DNA from: a virus
Direction: 5' to 3' (one strand)
IMG/VR virus record: IMGVR_UViG_3300002835_001123
Span: 1-23,417 of that record
DNA length: 23,417 nt
How positions within the stretch are numbered: the stretch's first letter is position 1; every line of letters starts with the position of its first letter. Shown in pieces: positions 1,148 to 14,825 of this stretch. The translations under genes and the position numbers were made by a program. Below the pieces are notes generated by a model. It had not been told where the DNA came from, did not search any database, and was given only the letters and a program-made list of their open reading frames with translations.

Positions 1148-1587
1148 CGGCTGGCCTCCTGCTCTGTGGTCAAGTTGCTTTGCAAATACTCTTCAATCAG
1201 CATTTCACGGCGCTGGTTGTTGTGGGCACGGCATTCGATTTGACAGTTTTCGACAGTCATGCCACCACCGCGCAAACGTGGCACAAGATGACCGCATTCA
1301 GCTTCCGAGCAGCATGGACCTTTACCGCGGTTGCTGAAAAAGCACCGCACGCCGTGAGCAATCGCGACCTCGACTTTTGTTTTCGTGTTCGTGTTCTTTC
1401 GAACGCTCAACCGCATCCTGTCAATGTCGTCCGGAGAGAATGGAAACACTGTTTCGTCAAAGTGCATGACCCACTCGGCATAGATCAGGCAGGCCGCCTC
1501 TTTCCGTTCTCGATCGGTTACAAGATCACGACCGCCCAATTGAGCTTTCTGAATTGCAATGGCCAGTTTCAGTTCATTGAACGTCAT
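1144..1587 (-). CDS. HNH-type nuclease-like protein
   Basis: 147 residues. The C-terminal half carries an HNH-like arrangement: C92/C93 and C98, then GH100 LVP, a glycine loop (RGGGM), N114, and H122-N123 in CRAHNNQR, with a further Cys at 119. HNH domains use the first His as general base and the later His/Asn to hold a metal. The N-terminal half (residues 1-75) is helical and not recognised. The gene is coupled to the methyltransferase upstream by an ATGA overlap (1584-1587). Next to a DNA methyltransferase, a nuclease could form a modification-restriction pair, but HNH proteins are also common as phage packaging or homing nucleases, so the pairing is inference. Confidence 0.7.
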   Translation of the reverse strand: MTFNELKLAIAIQKAQLGGRDLVTDRERKEAACLIYAEWVMHFDETVFPFSPDDIDRMRLSVRKNTNTKTKVEVAIAHGVRCFFSNRGKGPCCSEAECGHLVPRLRGGGMTVENCQIECRAHNNQRREMLIEEYLQSNLTTEQEASR

Positions 1588-2972
1588 GAGATCACCAGCC
1601 GTTTCTGAGCGAGATCAATGAACGCTTCGCTCTTGTCGATTCCGATGTATTTCCGACCGTTTCGGACGCTGGCAACTCCGGTTGTTCCGCTGCCGTTGAA
1701 CGGATCCACAACCAAGTCGCCGGGTTCACTCGCACAAAGAACAATTGGTTCCACGAGTGCCAGCGGAAGCTGAGTCGGAAACGTCGGAATTCGTTCTTCG
1801 CATGTGCCTGTCAACCGCGGAATTTGCCAAACGTCGTCCCAGATTTTGCCGCCGGTTGCCGCTCGTTTGTCGTTGTACTTTGTCTGCCGATCGGAGGGGC
1901 GAGAAACCGGCTCGGCATTCCAGACCATCGCCCGCTTGTGCATGGTCGCGTAAAAAATATGGCGGCTAGTTCGGTTAAACTTCCCAGAACAATTCACGCC
2001 AAACGTCTCGTACCACTTGATCCAGTTCCGAATGTTGAACCCGAGATCCTTCAGAATCATGCACGACTCCGCGGCCACTTCGTCGCAAGTCATCAGCCAC
2101 AAACTGCCATCATCTGTCAAGCATTCCTTGCACAGTGCCAGCCAGTCTTTGCACCAGCCGACGAACTTATCATGCGGCATCGCGTCCGCTTCAGCCCCGT
2201 CACCGTAATCAATGCCGATGTTGTACGGTGGATCGGTGAAAATCAGACGGGCAGGCCCGTGATTGTCGCGGACCGATTCAAGACCGGTCATCACGTCGTC
2301 ATTGATCAGAGTCCACAAAGGCTGATCGTTGCTCAGTTCGGCGACCGCTTCAGCCTTCTGTTTGATCTCAGCAGCTTTTTCCGTTCGCTTGATCTCTGCT
2401 GCAGCCTGGGGAACTGTTAGCTTGCCCTGTTCAATCTTTTCTGCGAGATCAGGGCGAGTCGCGACTATCTTTTCCGCGGGCTTGATGTACTTGCGATTTG
2501 TGCCAGCCGCTTCTGCTCGCTTTGCATCTGTCCGAGTTGTGTCGTCTTGTTTGCTAAGGGAATTATTTCCCTTAGCAGATTGTTTTTGGTGCTGATTCTT
2601 CGGCTGCGCCTTCGCGGTTTCAGCGATTGCCTTTTTATACTCTTCATCGAGTTGAGACCGCTTTGCGTCCGCAATAGCCGCCTGACTTGATGTGAGATGC
2701 CTGCGAGTCCGATTCTTCGACCAAACAAACGCCAAGGCATCGGCAGCCGTACCGTTGAACTCAATTGTCTTTGGCTTTACCTGAGCAATCGCACAAGCAG
2801 CACTGCGGTTTCGACCGTCCAAAACCTTGCCGTCAAACATGACGACTGGTTCTCGCAGTCCGTGCTTTGCAATGTCATCGGCCAGAGACTGAAGTTCGTC
2901 ATTTGGCATCATCGGGAAAATGCAGGCTGCGGGATGCCATGCAAGATTCGCGGTATCGACGCGCGTACCCAT
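1584..2972 (-). CDS. ParB-like/DNA methyltransferase fusion (N6-A or N4-C)
   Basis: 462 residues in two parts. Residues 10-95 are a ParB/Srx-like domain (HPAACIFPMMPNDELQSLAD, then GLREPVV and LDGRNRSAAC). A Lys/Gln-rich linker with possible helix-turn-helix follows (about 100-215). Residues 220-462 are a class I amino-DNA methyltransferase with catalytic motif IV DPPY (247-250) ahead of the SAM-binding motif FNGSGTTG (425-432), i.e. beta-type order as in the N6_N4_Mtase family. The frame has a stop nine bases before the ATG at 2972, so the start is fixed unless a weak codon is used; no good Shine-Dalgarno is visible. It heads the leftward operon. The likely role is methylating phage DNA against host restriction, or regulation. 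Confidence 0.9.
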   Translation of the reverse strand: MGTRVDTANLAWHPAACIFPMMPNDELQSLADDIAKHGLREPVVMFDGKVLDGRNRSAACAIAQVKPKTIEFNGTAADALAFVWSKNRTRRHLTSSQAAIADAKRSQLDEEYKKAIAETAKAQPKNQHQKQSAKGNNSLSKQDDTTRTDAKRAEAAGTNRKYIKPAEKIVATRPDLAEKIEQGKLTVPQAAAEIKRTEKAAEIKQKAEAVAELSNDQPLWTLINDDVMTGLESVRDNHGPARLIFTDPPYNIGIDYGDGAEADAMPHDKFVGWCKDWLALCKECLTDDGSLWLMTCDEVAAESCMILKDLGFNIRNWIKWYETFGVNCSGKFNRTSRHIFYATMHKRAMVWNAEPVSRPSDRQTKYNDKRAATGGKIWDDVWQIPRLTGTCEERIPTFPTQLPLALVEPIVLCASEPGDLVVDPFNGSGTTGVASVRNGRKYIGIDKSEAFIDLAQKRLVIS

Positions 2973-4545: not shown

Positions 4546-5424
4546 ATGGCACAGTTAATTGACTTGGCCGTTCGGCATGTCCGCGAGAATAATCTGAAGG
4601 GACGGACGCCGATTTACTCGGCCGCAAGATTCGTCAGGCTCGTCGGTGATGTGGCTCCGGAATCCATCACGACCGATCACCTCAACCAATACCGGCAGGC
4701 ATGTGCTGGCCTATCGCCGAAGACCATTGAAAGCAGTATCGGGAATATCCTGACCGTCATATCTGAAATGACGGGCCGCAAGATTCCGCCAGGCAAACGG
4801 CTGAAACTCAAAAAGCCTGTCCCGCGTCCGGTTCCAGATGATGCCGTCAACGCGGTCTATGAGTTGGCTCCGCAATGGCTCAAGGGCTGGATCGCTTTGA
4901 CTGTTTGGACTGGCCTGCGTGTTGGCGACGGCGTTGATCTGATGTGGGACATTGCTGGCACAGATCCCGGCTCAGTCTTGCGGACAAACGCAGGCAAAAC
5001 TGGAAAGCAGCACGTTTTTCCCATGCCGGACTGGTTGCGTCAGATCATTGCTGAATCGCCGTTTCCCCGTGAATACTGCTTGGAGAACACAAAAAAGTAT
5101 GTGCGGGCACAAATCTATTTGTGCTGCGAATCGGCAGGTATCCGCAAATGGGGACCGAAGAACCTCCGCCAGCGAGCAATCACTGAATGGAGCAAAGCAA
5201 ACGCGACCGCTGGGGCGATTTTGCACGGGTGCGGACTTGGGGTGATGCACCACTATTTGGACCCGCTCGCAGTGCTTGAATCGGCCATGTACCGCGTCAG
5301 GCTTCCGGCCTGCTTTGGAGTCGTCATCAATTCCGAGGACAGCCTTTTGTCAGCCTATCGCCGCCTTGATCCGTCCGCTCAGGGACTGGTCAGCATGACT
5401 GCGGAACGGCTCGCGGCGGGGTGA
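4546..5424 (+). CDS. int: Tyrosine recombinase (phage integrase)
   Basis: 292 residues. The N-terminal part (1-95) is a SAM-like core-binding domain (ITTDHLNQYRQ, LSPKTIESSIGNILTVI). The C-terminal catalytic domain shows Arg I in WTGLRVGD (R125), a Lys in the beta-hairpin region (K151 or K154), Arg II in PKNLRQR (R208), a His near 227, His 235/236 and the nucleophile Y237 in MHHYLDP. The usual HxxR box reads KxxR here, a tolerated but less common variant. Enzymes of this class integrate and excise phage DNA at att sites through a 3'-phosphotyrosine. There is no arm-binding N-terminal domain of the lambda type. It is the last plus-strand gene and converges with a small minus-strand ORF. Confidence 0.9.
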   Translation: MAQLIDLAVRHVRENNLKGRTPIYSAARFVRLVGDVAPESITTDHLNQYRQACAGLSPKTIESSIGNILTVISEMTGRKIPPGKRLKLKKPVPRPVPDDAVNAVYELAPQWLKGWIALTVWTGLRVGDGVDLMWDIAGTDPGSVLRTNAGKTGKQHVFPMPDWLRQIIAESPFPREYCLENTKKYVRAQIYLCCESAGIRKWGPKNLRQRAITEWSKANATAGAILHGCGLGVMHHYLDPLAVLESAMYRVRLPACFGVVINSEDSLLSAYRRLDPSAQGLVSMTAERLAAG

Positions 5425-5627: not shown

Positions 5628-5633
5628 CAGCTA

Positions 5634-5682
5634 AACGCAGCGAGCTTCAACCGATCGGCTGAAGCCCTTCCCAGGCTGCGTT
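5634..5682 (-). terminator. Nested inverted repeat closing the late operon
   Basis: AACGCAGC (5634-5641) pairs with GCTGCGTT (5675-5682). Inside, GCTTCA (5644-5649) pairs with TGAAGC (5660-5665) around the palindrome CCGATCGG. On the minus strand the hairpin ends in GCTGCGTTTAG, giving only a short U run, so it is an imperfect intrinsic terminator or a processing hairpin. It lies 29 bases past the last late gene and directly before the next promoter, exactly where the late transcript should end. An attachment-site function is possible but not supported. Confidence 0.5.
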
Positions 5683-5710
5683 GGTCCGGTTCATGACGCC
5701 GGGGCCGTAA

Positions 5711-6256
5711 CTATGATTCCTTGTAAAACCAGATGCGAGTTCCCGGCACAACACTGTGCCGCCCCTCAAACACCTCATTGACCGCATCCATCACGCCGAC
5801 GTCTTGCGTCCAGTAATCATGCCCGCAGATCAATCCGCCGGGCTTCAGCAGCATTCGCCACGCTTCAATGTCGGCCCTGCACTCCGCGTAGTTGTGGTCC
5901 GCGTCGATGAAGATTGAATCAAACTTGTGCCCCAACCGCTGACACTCACGCGATGCGTCAATGGAGTGCATTCGCAGGCTGTTGATTGAGATATTCAGGT
6001 GCAACAGTTCAAAGGTCGCGGCCTGAACTCGTTCCACCCACTGACGATTTTGCCAGATACTGCCATCGTCGACCGAAACAACTTCCGAGAACCTTTGCAT
6101 TCCCGCACAGCTTGCCAGCAACGATCGGCCACAGTAGGTTCCGATTTCAGCGTGACTCTTTGACTTGCTGATGTTGTCGTAAAGCCAGCCAAGTTCAACC
6201 GGCCACATTTGCCCTGGCACTTGATAACACTGTCGGATCGTTTGTTCGCGCGTCAT
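5711..6256 (-). CDS. Class I SAM-dependent methyltransferase
   Basis: 181 residues from the ATG at 6256, with AGGAT about nine bases upstream and the previous stop one base away. Motif I is HAEIGTYCGRS (residues 35-45). The segment SIFIDADHNYAECRADIEAW (115-133) is followed by LLKPGGLICGHDY (136-148), a pattern typical of the Methyltransf_24 / cephalosporin hydroxylase-like family acting on small molecules or glycans rather than on DNA. It is the last gene of the late operon, behind the PRTase-HAD fusion, and may act on that enzyme's product or decorate a virion glycan. Both ideas are inference. Confidence 0.8.
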   Translation of the reverse strand: MTREQTIRQCYQVPGQMWPVELGWLYDNISKSKSHAEIGTYCGRSLLASCAGMQRFSEVVSVDDGSIWQNRQWVERVQAATFELLHLNISINSLRMHSIDASRECQRLGHKFDSIFIDADHNYAECRADIEAWRMLLKPGGLICGHDYWTQDVGVMDAVNEVFEGRHSVVPGTRIWFYKES

Positions 6257-6257
6257 C

Positions 6258-7655
6258 TTAGTAACATCCTGCGGTGTGCGGACAGATCGTAAGCAGCTTC
6301 GCCAGCTTCGCGATTTCACGGGCCTGCCCGTCCTCTGATTCGAAAAAGATTATCGGCCCAGGTGTTGCTTTGTGCTTCGCAGCCCATGCTGCGTAATGCC
6401 GGGCCTTGTATGCCGCGATGTTGTCCCGTCGGCGTTCTGCAAGTGTTGCGGCTGGGTGCATTACCAACCGATTCCAGCGGATGCCGTGCCGTCTCAACCA
6501 GTCTTCCGTGTCTGCCCTGTATCGCTCAATTCGTGCCGTCACGATCAGCGGAATCGGGCATCGGCGCGGCATGTAAAGCGGTTTGGCATTGCGGATGAAA
6601 TCCGAATACTTCGGCCCGTCATCATCGCATCCGGGCGGGCAATCGTGGCACAGAATGCCGTCGAAATCCATCGCCGCCGACGGGGACAAAATCGAGTTAA
6701 AAACGTTCCATTCAAGGATGTGCGGCCAGGGCAAATCAACGGACCAGATATCTGGCTTGAGCAATGCTTTTGGGTTGACATAAATCGCCGCATAGATCGC
6801 GTTTCCGAACTCGCGATCGATCAGCGGTTTGATCGCTTTGAGACTGTTGCCGGTCATGACAGTGTCATCAACGACAAGAATCTTTTCCGTCCTTGGATTG
6901 ACGTGTTTCGTTCCGCCAAGTCTCCAACCGTTTCCGGTCTGCACGACATCGTTCATGGTTTGCCGAATCGTGACCATCGGCAAATGAAGGTACATCGAAA
7001 GCATCGTTGCGGCGCTGAGCCCTGATCGTGCCACTCCTGCGATCGCAGTCACGTCCGGCGGAATCTTTGCGATCAGGTTGAGGATATCAAACTGGAACTG
7101 CGACGACCGGACAAAACGTGTCGGGCCGGTTCCAGCGACAAATGCACTGCCAACGCCTCGGCTTACTGTTCTGCGAACTGGTTTTGGTCGCGGCGTCTCG
7201 CATGTCGTCGTGGCTGCCGCCAATGCAGTTGAGACGATTTCGCTGATGCGTTTCCGTTGCCCCTCCTTGTCGCCGTGCGTTATTCGCCATTCCGGCGGCC
7301 ATGAGATTTCCGCGTACAACTTCTGCACAATTGCAGCGTGGTCGTGGGCGGATGTCTTGTTGAGCGACTGCAGATATGCTTTGCAGGTTCCGCACGATAC
7401 CGGCCTGCCAGTTTCTGCCTGTATCGCTGCCAGCAACAGTGTCCCGAGGTTTGAGCAATCACATCGACCACGTTTTGTTGTGCTGCATGATCGACGCTGC
7501 GGGCCTTTCTTCGCCTGCGGATTTACCCACGGTTCACCGCTCAGCATTGCGTCAACTCGTGGCTTGTTGGCTCTGCAAATCAGCTGCATCGTCGGCTTCA
7601 GCGCGACGTTTCGCGCTGTACAAAATCCAGACAGTTCGCACTGGCACTCACTCAC
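6258..7655 (-). CDS. Cys-rich domain / phosphoribosyltransferase / HAD phosphatase fusion
   Basis: 465 residues from a GTG at 7655, overlapping the previous frame (GAGGA about nine bases upstream). Residues 1-125 are rich in Cys: CQC near 4-6, C12, C27, CDCSNLGTLLLAAI around 65-78, and CGTC 88-91. Residues 180-310 form a type I phosphoribosyltransferase with the PRPP loop VVDDTVMTGNS (261-271) and an upstream GVARSGLSAATML. Residues 328-455 form a HAD domain: DFD at 330-332 as motif I, T373 in VTAR as motif II, K417 as motif III, and FFESEDGQA (437-445) as the acidic motif IV. PRTase-HAD pairs occur in predicted nucleoside-like metabolite pathways such as Ter-linked systems. The phage substrate is unknown. 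Confidence 0.82.
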   Translation of the reverse strand: MSECQCELSGFCTARNVALKPTMQLICRANKPRVDAMLSGEPWVNPQAKKGPQRRSCSTTKRGRCDCSNLGTLLLAAIQAETGRPVSCGTCKAYLQSLNKTSAHDHAAIVQKLYAEISWPPEWRITHGDKEGQRKRISEIVSTALAAATTTCETPRPKPVRRTVSRGVGSAFVAGTGPTRFVRSSQFQFDILNLIAKIPPDVTAIAGVARSGLSAATMLSMYLHLPMVTIRQTMNDVVQTGNGWRLGGTKHVNPRTEKILVVDDTVMTGNSLKAIKPLIDREFGNAIYAAIYVNPKALLKPDIWSVDLPWPHILEWNVFNSILSPSAAMDFDGILCHDCPPGCDDDGPKYSDFIRNAKPLYMPRRCPIPLIVTARIERYRADTEDWLRRHGIRWNRLVMHPAATLAERRRDNIAAYKARHYAAWAAKHKATPGPIIFFESEDGQAREIAKLAKLLTICPHTAGCY

Positions 7656-7800
7656 GACTGGCTTTCCTCGCTAATCGGTCGATTTCGTCTTTCCATGCCT
7701 GTACTGCATGATCGCCACTGGATTGCGAAAACCGCATCCAGCCATGCACAAGGAACTGTGCGAGGATCGCGATAAACAGGACGCCGATAAGTCTGAGCAT
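7648..7800 (-). CDS. Small membrane-anchored protein (50 aa)
   Basis: A short ORF whose ATG (7800-7798) shares a base with the previous stop (TAATG) and whose end overlaps the next start by 8 bases, so it fits tightly into the operon. The protein starts MLRLIGVLFIAILAQFLVHG, one membrane helix at the N-terminus, followed by a soluble amphipathic tail rich in charges (AWKDEIDRLARKASRE). AGGAAAG lies about ten bases upstream. A longer ORF in another frame (7652-7858) covers the same DNA but has no matching signals. N-in membrane anchors with helical tails in late phage operons suggest a spanin or holin accessory, unproven. Confidence 0.65.
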   Translation of the reverse strand: MLRLIGVLFIAILAQFLVHGWMRFSQSSGDHAVQAWKDEIDRLARKASRE

Positions 7801-9014
7801 TAACAGTTGCTTTCCTGCTCAACGATCGTGATATCCGAAATTTGATAGCTCCAAGCATCGCACGTTGGGTTCGAAAATGTGCCGACTGTCAGCAGTGCCG
7901 GGCATGCGCAGTCAGTGCGAACAACATCCGTCTGACACCAAACTCCTGTCGACCCAAATCTGTAGTAAACGCACAGGTCACAGTTTATGCAAGCACAAAC
8001 CATGATTACCTCCAGGGTTTCGGTGCGACTTCCCCCCATCGGTATTGCCAAAACACCGGTGAACGTTCCGCGATAGGCTGGAAATGGCCCAGGCGAAAAC
8101 GGTGAGCATTCAATTTCTGGTTCGCTGACTTGCCCGTATTGCAGCGTCATCTGATGCACTGTCGCTGGAGCGTTTGCTGAGGCAAAAAGCAGAGTCAACG
8201 TCTCGCCCATCGGCCGCCCGCAAATGCAATCCCCGACAACGGTGGCACAGTCGCACTGTTTGCAGCGAAACGAAAACGTCGTGCCGTTTTCCATCTCCAC
8301 CGTTCCGGACATATCCGCACAGCCAGTGACCTGAACCGGGCTTTGCTCATTGCCGTCAATTGTTGGTGTTACGATGCACTGGCCGTAAGCATCGCGCCCG
8401 AGTGCCAAACTCACATCGAAATTGCCAATCGGTCCAGCCCAAACCGGGGGATCACAATCGCTGTAGGAAACGTCCTGCAGTTCGCCGCTGTAGGTATCGG
8501 TGAAATCCGAGTAAATCACTTCGCTTACGTCGACGCATACCGCGTGGCACGAGCATCGGCAGTTTCCACAGAAGAAATCTCGGCAACCGGTGTCTGGATC
8601 GTCGATCAGGGCAAGCTCACGCGGTTCGTATTTTGACCAACGTAAAGTGCCTTCGAGGTAGCCAACATCGACAGCAACTTCGCCCTGTGGATCGCGACAA
8701 CTGGCTCCCTTGTAACACGTCGCTCTGTAAACTTCCTCGCCTTCGAGCGTGACGATGTATTCGCATTCGTCATACGAGTTCCGCTGCCAATACGAAACGA
8801 ACGCATAGCCGCCGACAGTGCCGGTCCATGATGACGTGCCGAAGTCGGCCGAACCTTGTTCGATGTTGCCGTACGTCTCCCATTCGAGACACAGTTTGCA
8901 CGGAATGACGCCGCAACAGCCGTCAGCCGTTTCGATGTCGCAAACGTCAATCATCCGCTCTGAGCATGGGTTTAAGCGGTCTGGTGACGATCTGCGAAGG
9001 TATCGTGATGGCAT
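7800..9014 (-). CDS. Cysteine-rich virion protein, probable distal tail or receptor-binding component
   Basis: 404 residues with about 33 cysteines (roughly 8 percent), far above its neighbours. They cluster in pairs and short runs: GCCG and CKLC near the N-terminus, CGNCRCSC mid-protein, CKQCDC and CICG, and CACINCDLC near the C-terminus. Spacing suggests repeated small units each with a CxxC-type end, alternating with beta-rich segments (TVGGYAFVSYW, GTFTGVLAIPM). It could bind metals inside the cell or form disulfides outside. No signal peptide or enzyme motif is seen. Its position after two other tail genes makes a distal tail or adhesin role likely. No family is recognised with certainty. 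Confidence 0.65.
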   Translation of the reverse strand: MPSRYLRRSSPDRLNPCSERMIDVCDIETADGCCGVIPCKLCLEWETYGNIEQGSADFGTSSWTGTVGGYAFVSYWQRNSYDECEYIVTLEGEEVYRATCYKGASCRDPQGEVAVDVGYLEGTLRWSKYEPRELALIDDPDTGCRDFFCGNCRCSCHAVCVDVSEVIYSDFTDTYSGELQDVSYSDCDPPVWAGPIGNFDVSLALGRDAYGQCIVTPTIDGNEQSPVQVTGCADMSGTVEMENGTTFSFRCKQCDCATVVGDCICGRPMGETLTLLFASANAPATVHQMTLQYGQVSEPEIECSPFSPGPFPAYRGTFTGVLAIPMGGSRTETLEVIMVCACINCDLCVYYRFGSTGVWCQTDVVRTDCACPALLTVGTFSNPTCDAWSYQISDITIVEQESNC

Positions 9015-13569: not shown

Positions 13570-13998
13570 TTAGACTCCATTGTGATGAATTTCGAAACTT
13601 ACAGTGCTGTCCCAAATGCCGGTCGACTCATCCTGTTCTGATGAAATGCCGCTTGATCTGCTAAACGTAATCACTGAACCCGATCCGGTGTATGTGCCGC
13701 TATCCCACAGTGTTTCACAACGCTGAGCGACGGCCTTGCCTCTGTCGTAATCGATTGACATGACGGACACTTTTACCTGGCTTTTCCAGCCTCGTCCGCT
13801 GTTCGTTCGCCAGTGCGGTTCTGTCGCGACTTGCAATACAACGCAGTCGTCAAAATGTCCGTCCTGATCTTTATCCGCGTCGATTGTTTCGTTCGTCTGA
13901 ATGATCTCTGTTCCAACCCGCTCGGCAGGAATCATGGAGACGAGGCCCGCAGTTCCTTTCCAGCGTTCAATCAAACATTGATCAAGACCAGTGCTCAC
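13570..13998 (-). CDS. Putative tail terminator/completion protein
   Basis: 142 residues from a GTG at 13998 that overlaps the previous stop (GTGA). The pattern is a helical start (STGLDQCLIERWKGTAGLVSMI), PAERVGTEIIQ, then a beta-rich middle with a charged segment (DADKDQDGHFDD) and a C-terminal strand set (STGIWDSTVSFEIHHNGV). Size and location between the gp10-like gene and the tail tube are those of the DUF3168/gpU-like tail completion proteins that cap the tail and join it to the head. Identification is by position and general shape. Confidence 0.6.
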   Translation of the reverse strand: MSTGLDQCLIERWKGTAGLVSMIPAERVGTEIIQTNETIDADKDQDGHFDDCVVLQVATEPHWRTNSGRGWKSQVKVSVMSIDYDRGKAVAQRCETLWDSGTYTGSGSVITFSRSSGISSEQDESTGIWDSTVSFEIHHNGV

Positions 13999-14825
13999 TT
14001 AACAACCGCTTTCTTCTTGCCGCCCTTGTTGGCCTGTTTGAGTTCGCTTCCAACAACCTTGCCAAATTCTTCCTTGTTGTCTTCAACTGCCGGTTTCAAA
14101 AACGGCCTGCCTTTGCCGTCTTTTCGAAACTCCCACATCGCCATGTATCCGGCGATTTTCTTGTCAACATACACACGGCTCTCCAGCTTCTTTCCTTTTA
14201 ACCTTAACTGAGCCTTGATTGATGACCTTCCTTTTCCTGTTCGCATTTTTGGTGGCTCGCCCGGTCTGCTTGCCCCCGGATCTGCATTTGATGTTCTGAC
14301 CCGAGCGCCAGTGATGTCAACAGTGCCATCAAGATCGAACTGCGTTCTTGCTCTTTCCTGTGCTCTCAATGCCCTGCGTTGATCTCTAGCCTGTATCTTT
14401 CTTTCGCGTTCTCGAAGTCTTGCCGCCTTCTTGCGAGCCTTAAAAAACCGCGTTGTGTTTTTTGATGCCGCCCTCAGTGTCTTTCTTGCAAATCGTTTCG
14501 CCTTGCGTGTTTGTCCCGGTAACTTCTTCAGCCTTCGTCGTGCCTCTCGTAACCGTCGCTTTCCAATTCGCTTGAGTACCTTTGATGTTTTCTTGGCTTG
14601 TCGATTTGCCTTTTTTGCTCGTCGTGCGACAGCCTTCGACAACGAATTGGACTTGAAAAACTTCGCGACTCGCCTCTTGCTTTTGTTAACCCTTCTGCTG
14701 ACTACCTTGATTCTTTTCGCAACGTTTTTCTTTGCAGCCTTAACCCGCTTGCGGCCTGCCTTGGAAGTTGCTGAAAGCAGTTTCCCGGCTCTGTATCGAA
14801 GCGTCTTAGGTTTGCGTTTCGCCAT
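13995..14825 (-). CDS. gp10-like head-tail protein, C-terminal part, with histone-like basic N-terminal extension
   Basis: 276 residues. Residues 1-160 are extraordinarily basic: 69 Lys/Arg (43 percent) and only about five acidic residues, Ala-rich, resembling histone H1 tails. Residues about 180-265 match the C-terminal half of HK97 gp10-like minor tail proteins: GASRPGEPPKMRTGKGRSSI, then YMAMWEFRKDGKGRPFLKPAVED. The matching N-terminal helix half is encoded in the preceding gene (14806-14994) in a different frame, with a 20-base overlap. There is no convincing Shine-Dalgarno at the ATG (14825), so coupling or a +1 frameshift is likely. The basic segment could bind DNA entering or leaving the portal. 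A sequencing error or gene split is the alternative. Confidence 0.7.
   Translation of the reverse strand: MAKRKPKTLRYRAGKLLSATSKAGRKRVKAAKKNVAKRIKVVSRRVNKSKRRVAKFFKSNSLSKAVARRAKKANRQAKKTSKVLKRIGKRRLREARRRLKKLPGQTRKAKRFARKTLRAASKNTTRFFKARKKAARLRERERKIQARDQRRALRAQERARTQFDLDGTVDITGARVRTSNADPGASRPGEPPKMRTGKGRSSIKAQLRLKGKKLESRVYVDKKIAGYMAMWEFRKDGKGRPFLKPAVEDNKEEFGKVVGSELKQANKGGKKKAVVK

Follow-up and report, generated by a model that had tools for sequence, protein, structure and literature searches.

Transfer of ribose 5-phosphate from PRPP to a glycan, followed by dephosphorylation by a HAD phosphatase, is established for K. pneumoniae O-antigens (PMC11127046), for Bcs3, the capsule polymerase of H. 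influenzae b (PMC10299916), and for C. jejuni Cj1432 (PMC12096443). In the K. pneumoniae O4/O7 case, too, the enzymes are dual-domain ribofuranosyltransferases, each with a gPRT and a HAD phosphatase (Kelly 2022, as cited in PMC11127046). Among phages, virion glycosylation by phage glycosyltransferases has been described in mycobacteriophages (Freeman 2023, as cited in PMC13313380 and PMC11256854). There, as these citing papers have it, phage-borne sugar-modifying enzymes are thought to target virion proteins, which is the likeness to the present case; those enzymes are actinobacteriophage glycosyltransferases, whereas the swappable cassette described here encodes a PRPP-type transferase fused to a Cys-rich module.

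The DNA analysed, here called the window, is the 23,417-bp IMG/VR virus record IMGVR_UViG_3300002835_001123, with no host genome attached. Like the gPRT–phosphatase ribofuranosyltransferases, one of its proteins carries a PRPP-binding phosphoribosyltransferase (PRT) and a HAD phosphatase in one polypeptide. As with those enzymes, its cellular copies are found in surface-polysaccharide loci, and the phage cassettes described here hold other glycan genes. In Bcs3 and Cj1432 (PMC10299916, PMC12096443), however, the phosphatase comes before the PRT, while in the window protein the order is reversed (PRT at residues 168-322, HAD at 323-465). Their PRT is larger; that of the window is compact and XGPRT-like, and lacks the helical bundles reported for CriT (Bcs3 CriT/CrpP). 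Further differences are the PNKP-like HAD and the Cys-rich module carried by phage copies. Because Bcs3 and Cj1432 gave no sequence match to the window protein among the matches listed, and differ in domain order and PRT size, the function proposed below rests on analogy: the PRT-HAD protein may work like the gPRT–phosphatase enzymes, and membership of that group is not claimed. Bcs3 and the T. composti enzyme are likewise absent among the profile and structure matches listed, which is no proof of differing folds. No paper describing the Cys module, or a PRT followed by a HAD in this order, came up in our literature search.

Homologous PRT-HAD fusions with 30-34% identity are encoded on Rhizobium and Rhodobacter plasmids, where NCBI names them 'phosphoribosyltransferase family protein'. 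They lie near glycosyltransferases or lipopolysaccharide genes but lack the Cys-rich module and a Methyltransf_24 partner. Some adjoin a caspase-like gene; in the Rhizobium plasmid loci L012 and L014, for example, a caspase-family peptidase gene stands immediately upstream of PRT-HAD, with type VI secretion genes close by.

The late operon and the three-part protein

The late operon lies on the minus strand and runs from the terminase (GpA ATPase plus nuclease) through portal, major head protein and tape measure to Cys-rich tail-region proteins and the PRT-HAD cassette. When the window proteins were scanned, the portal proved to be of lambda type and the major head protein Mu gpT-like. A Cys-rich late protein of 404 aa (7800..9014, minus strand), which is kept in relatives, precedes the cassette and from its position is a probable distal tail protein. 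Between it and the PRT-HAD gene (6258..7655, minus strand, 465 aa), and overlapping both, is a gene for a one-helix protein of 50 aa (7648..7800, minus strand). Directly behind PRT-HAD follows a Methyltransf_24 methyltransferase (5711..6256, minus strand, 181 aa), and just 3' of the cassette a hairpin element of 51 nt (5633..5683, minus strand). A tyrosine-type integrase (4546..5424, plus strand) is convergent with the late operon.

The PRT-HAD gene starts with GTG at 7655, in an 8-base overlap with the end of the one-helix gene, and stops with TAA at 6260–6258; the methyltransferase ATG at 6256 is one base beyond. This ATG, rather than the mechanically assigned GTG at 6319, is most likely the methyltransferase start, and relatives align from the equivalent point. 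The spacing and overlaps of the cassette genes constitute tight operon coupling.

Three other products of the window may be mentioned. The 50-aa protein (MLRLIGVLFIAILAQFLVHGW...), which falls below the 60-aa size of the first ORF list, has one apparent membrane helix and is possibly lysis-related. Downstream of the integrase, an N6/N4 DNA methyltransferase is fused to a ParB-like N-terminal domain (1584-2972, minus strand). Finally, a 276-aa ORF in the head/tail region (13995-14825, minus strand) is extremely rich in Lys and Arg and has no Pfam match.

All three parts of the PRT-HAD protein are encoded on the minus strand. The Cys-rich N-terminal module (residues 1-166, 7158..7655) has the pattern C-x-C-x5-C-x14-C, then C-x2-C-x7-LN. 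The PRT domain (residues about 168-322, 6690..7154) has an XGPRT-like fold, with the PRPP loop ILVVDDTVMTG around 6843-6881, and the PNKP-like HAD phosphatase domain (residues 323-465, 6261..6689) carries the motifs DFDGIL, VTAR, K and FFES. In Pfam, Pribosyltran matches residues 202-317 above the gathering score (E=2.4e-7), and the downstream protein matches Methyltransf_24 with E=3e-17 (63.9 bits against a cut-off of 26.3). The HAD domain is weak in single-sequence search, where it matches a PHROG polynucleotide kinase at 4e-5, but it is clear by profile, where it matches Pnkp1 with E=4.6e-4, and by fold.

An AlphaFold2 model built from 31 relatives has a mean pLDDT of 81. The PRT and HAD domains are mostly above 90, while the first 66 residues are mostly below 60 and the Cys-module fold there is without confident prediction. 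The PRT model matches HGXPRT/XGPRT (best Z 17.0, rmsd 2.5 over 133 residues), purine salvage enzymes with which it has the fold and the PRPP and PPi loops in common. The HAD model matches the PNKP phosphatase Pnkp1 (PDB 4xrp; Z 12.4, rmsd 3.0 over 129 residues), sharing with it the HAD fold and weak sequence-profile similarity; in contrast to PNKP, the window protein has no kinase or ligase domain, and its partners differ.

Conservation was assessed in 120 dereplicated relatives. The PPi-loop RSG is present in 118-119 of them, the second D of the PRPP-loop acidic pair is invariant, the first is D or E, and the HAD catalytic D, D, T, K and E are near-invariant. Judged by these residues, the PRT and HAD cores are intact and not degenerate. 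Both the PRT-HAD gene and the methyltransferase are under purifying selection, with pairwise dN/dS against the L004 copies of about 0.07 and about 0.15, respectively. Pfam, profile, fold and near-invariant motifs together confirm the Cys-rich/PRTase/HAD protein of the original prediction, which had the domains right; what can be refined is that the HAD is PNKP-like and that the Cys-rich part is a module in its own right.

Relatives and their gene neighbourhoods

The PRT-HAD fusion is not unusual. Relatives occur at 451 confirmed bacterial loci in GTDB genomes (80 kept) and at 87 viral loci in IMG/VR (80 kept); INPHARED phages gave zero matches, so that no isolate is at hand. On a quick tree, which has several long branches, there is little intermixing of phage with bacterial copies: 5 changes are counted, compared with 40 in shuffles. 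The closest cellular copies in GTDB are from Planctomycetota genomes, at 42–48% identity, and planctomycete genomes also contain terminase relatives of 34–40% identity, in two cases on single large contigs. Going by these similarities, a planctomycete host is likely.

Bacterial copies sit among glycosyltransferase, O-antigen ligase/polymerase and flippase genes. A scan of 121 neighbouring proteins from 60 dereplicated loci gave Glycos_transf_2 and Glyco_trans_1_4 (25 of the 121 each), Wzy_C (11), Polysacc_synt, a flippase (4), and PS_pyruv_trans (4). Downstream neighbours of the phage copies, 90 in all, include Methyltransf_24 (19), CTP_transf_3 (5), PS_pyruv_trans (4) and sulfotransferase (3), with RXYLT1_C (2), GT47 (2) and UDPG_MGDP_dh (1) being rarer.

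The association with the methyltransferase, also predicted originally, is real. Of the 60 dereplicated phage loci, 18 have the enzyme at +1/+2, and so do 11 of the 19 close relatives. Its profile matches 18 of the 79 phage ORFs of 120-320 aa at +1/+2 against 4 of 338 farther away (Fisher p=7e-11, a value to be taken as indicative since the profile was built iteratively from the same loci). A few of the 60 bacterial loci are planctomycete contigs with phage-like surrounding genes, and these include L016, the sole 'bacterial' locus of the 60 with an adjacent methyltransferase. In planctomycete genome G230, a Cys-rich protein is followed, in this order, by PRT-HAD, a sulfotransferase-like protein, MT24 and glycosyltransferases.

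Other arrangements were also seen. The planctomycete MAG G003 (L018, L019, L020) has 11 PRT-HAD matches, several of which are tandem PRT-HAD-PRT-HAD proteins of 606-681 aa, and some stand behind tail-like genes. Cytidylyltransferases of the CMP-sugar type (CTP_transf_3) adjoin PRT-HAD in L005 (8901-10199), L102, L107 and L110, most of which also encode a protein that reads as sialyltransferase-like; these neighbours suggest nonulosonic-acid-like sugars in the phage cassette.

Turning to the Cys-rich part, the N-terminal extension has a median of 113 aa in phages, with at least 4 Cys in 45 of 60 copies, as against a bacterial median of 0 and 4 of 60. The motif C-x-C-x3-G[FY]C is found again in phage PRT-HADs that are only distantly related, as well as in other proteins, GT-like ones among them. 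A stand-alone 92-aa protein with both Cys clusters is encoded in a planctomycete prophage, in the matching place behind the tail genes; the terminase of this prophage is 39% identical to that of the window. Profiles of the fused and stand-alone forms align in hhalign at 77% and E 2e-5. The stand-alone copy and the profile match together indicate that the PRT-HAD N-terminus is a phage late-operon module in fused form, and the Cys-rich part is thus separable. As a further observation, in L007 (5839-7785) and L099 (5229-7313) a Cys-rich tail protein seems to have an inserted formylglycine-enzyme/C-type-lectin-like domain, which recalls the variable domains targeted by diversity-generating retroelements.

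Cassette exchange and the 3' hairpin

Alignment of the window with L009, a related phage, reveals an exchange. Their DNA aligns as far as position 7164, where the Cys module ends, with the PRT starting near 7154; homology is absent through PRT-HAD and the methyltransferase, and is back at 5716–5633. What L009 encodes in the place of the cassette is a GT-like domain, followed by a Methyltransf_11 protein and a 2OG-Fe(II) oxygenase. The pair of PRT-HAD and methyltransferase is one allele of a swappable cassette, a finding new here.

The 3' flank common to the window and L009 holds the 51-nt hairpin, which has two helices and for whose region Rfam gave zero matches. The pattern CTGGGAAGGGC-N6-CGATCGG-N5-GCTC occurs once in the window and once per contig in 29 viral contigs, some of them already known here (e.g. 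those of L002, L004 and L009). Covariation is strong: in 15 distinct copies 98.6% of cells pair, a signal that collapses in slid controls, and 37 cells are changed on both sides, with 0 of 500 shuffles as high. Since the search pattern fixed several columns, the invariant pairs there do not count as evidence; covariation is seen in the inner stem, at its free N positions, and in the flanking outer stem, which the pattern left unconstrained.

The late operon probably has its 3' end at the hairpin, and is taken to end there in what follows. The genes just upstream of it are of several types, whose family names, where Pfam was not run, are readings of the sequence: PRT-HAD with MT24; a Cys-module GT-like protein with a methyltransferase and a 2OG-oxygenase; a Cys-module protein with a family-2-like transferase; two other transferase-like genes; and no cassette. 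The hairpin often lies just behind other glycan-type cassettes.

Proposed function and alternative readings

The products of the gene pair probably modify a sugar chain or surface molecule by adding ribose, drawn from PRPP, and a methyl group. On balance we favour, with some reservation, a glycan-decoration cassette in which PRPP ribosylation, HAD dephosphorylation and O-methylation are combined with a Cys adaptor at an exchangeable late-operon locus. The PRT domain would bind PRPP and move phosphoribose onto a sugar or glycan acceptor, at a hydroxyl group. The 5'-phosphate would then be taken off by the fused PNKP-like HAD domain, and the Methyltransf_24 enzyme would O-methylate the sugar, capping or modifying it. 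The Cys-rich module would be a phage-specific adaptor tethering the enzyme to a target that is most likely the upstream-encoded Cys-rich tail protein or another late protein; binding of the module to the tail protein, or to metal, is putative. At the 3' locus of the late operon, differing glycan-modifying enzymes would be exchanged between a constant Cys module and a constant hairpin.

In 6-oxopurine PRTases, a PRPP-loop Asp and a hood Lys contact the base (XGPRT D92, K115), and both the purine Asp and the O6-Lys are visible in the aligned Sulfolobus purine PRTase. The window PRT has M and N at these positions, and among relatives the first is D in 1 of 120 and the second K in 4 of 119. Unlike XGPRT and HGXPRT, then, the family is without the conserved purine Asp and Lys and is fused to a HAD phosphatase. 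That PRPP binding is kept but base recognition lost argues for an acceptor other than a base, and the loss of these residues, together with the bacterial polysaccharide loci, favours a ribosyl transferase that depends on PRPP and has a glycan as its acceptor. Weighing against the glycan-decoration reading, the PRT folds closest to that of the window act on nucleobases, and the methyltransferase is adjacent in only 18 of 60 phage loci. Among the options offered originally, modification of virion or host molecules fits best. The accompanying remark that nothing in virion assembly needs such enzymes overlooked published virion glycosylation (Freeman 2023, as cited in PMC13313380 and PMC11256854).

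The virion as acceptor is favoured by the late-operon coupling and the Cys module, while the host surface would suit the integrase-side place and the bacterial polysaccharide homologues. Were the same chemistry directed at host O-antigen or capsule, a prophage could alter the receptor and exclude other phages. Such lysogenic conversion, which we regard as unlikely but the strongest of the alternatives, would agree with the position of the cassette between late operon and convergent integrase, the usual place for such genes, with homologues in surface-polysaccharide loci and with relatives in planctomycete genomes amid phage-like genes. However, promoter matches in the cassette are not above chance when compared with shuffles which, along with the tight late-gene coupling, suggests late expression and speaks against conversion. 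Nor is a flippase or a GtrA/B-type membrane partner seen in the window, and the Cys module is common to PRT-HAD and a stand-alone late-operon protein.

We consider it improbable that the cassette carries out nucleotide or nucleoside chemistry, the PRT making a nucleoside 5'-monophosphate, the HAD dephosphorylating it and the methyltransferase finishing a signal, base precursor or counter-defence metabolite. The fold of the PRT, nearest XGPRT/HGXPRT, and that of the HAD, nearest a nucleic-acid 3'-phosphatase, would be in keeping with it, but the purine Asp and O6-Lys are gone in nearly all relatives, and in both bacteria and phages the neighbouring genes are of glycan type. The nucleotide-like signals and base precursors of the original prediction are not supported by these observations. 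Its Ter link found no TerD, TerC, TerY or ATP-grasp among the 25 commonest neighbour families or the window proteins scanned, and counter-defence lacks positive evidence, the sole defence-system signal in PADLOC being a generic PRTase match (ShosT, E 0.0015). With no supporting neighbours among the families listed and the base-site residues lost, the nucleotide-signal, Ter-linked and base-precursor readings were rejected. Least probable is nucleic-acid repair or end-processing, with the HAD as a PNKP-like 3'-phosphatase and the PRT ribosylating RNA or DNA ends: the only solved sequence relative of the HAD is Pnkp1, from an RNA-repair complex, but no kinase or ligase is among the neighbour families listed, and the neighbours are glycan-type.

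Returning to glycan decoration, a broader proposal can be made, tentatively and with more doubt than confidence. The late operon may contain a glyco-cassette slot, extending from Cys adaptor to RNA hairpin, in which enzymes are swapped to give changing virion glycan coats. PRT-HAD would then be a second, so far unrecognised family of PRPP-dependent ribosyl transferases, with the PRT ahead of a PNKP-like HAD, and the polysaccharide loci of bacteria would be another place where this family is widespread. If this is true, phages would own a PRPP-driven ribosylation chemistry, and the modular slot for swapping glycan-modifying enzymes would be their equivalent of variation in antigens or receptors. 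The covarying RNA would serve as a marker for locating such cassettes, and there would be a testable function for a PRT-HAD family which, in hundreds of bacterial genomes, is annotated only as 'phosphoribosyltransferase'. The cassette points to a poorly described decoration by phages of themselves or of their hosts.
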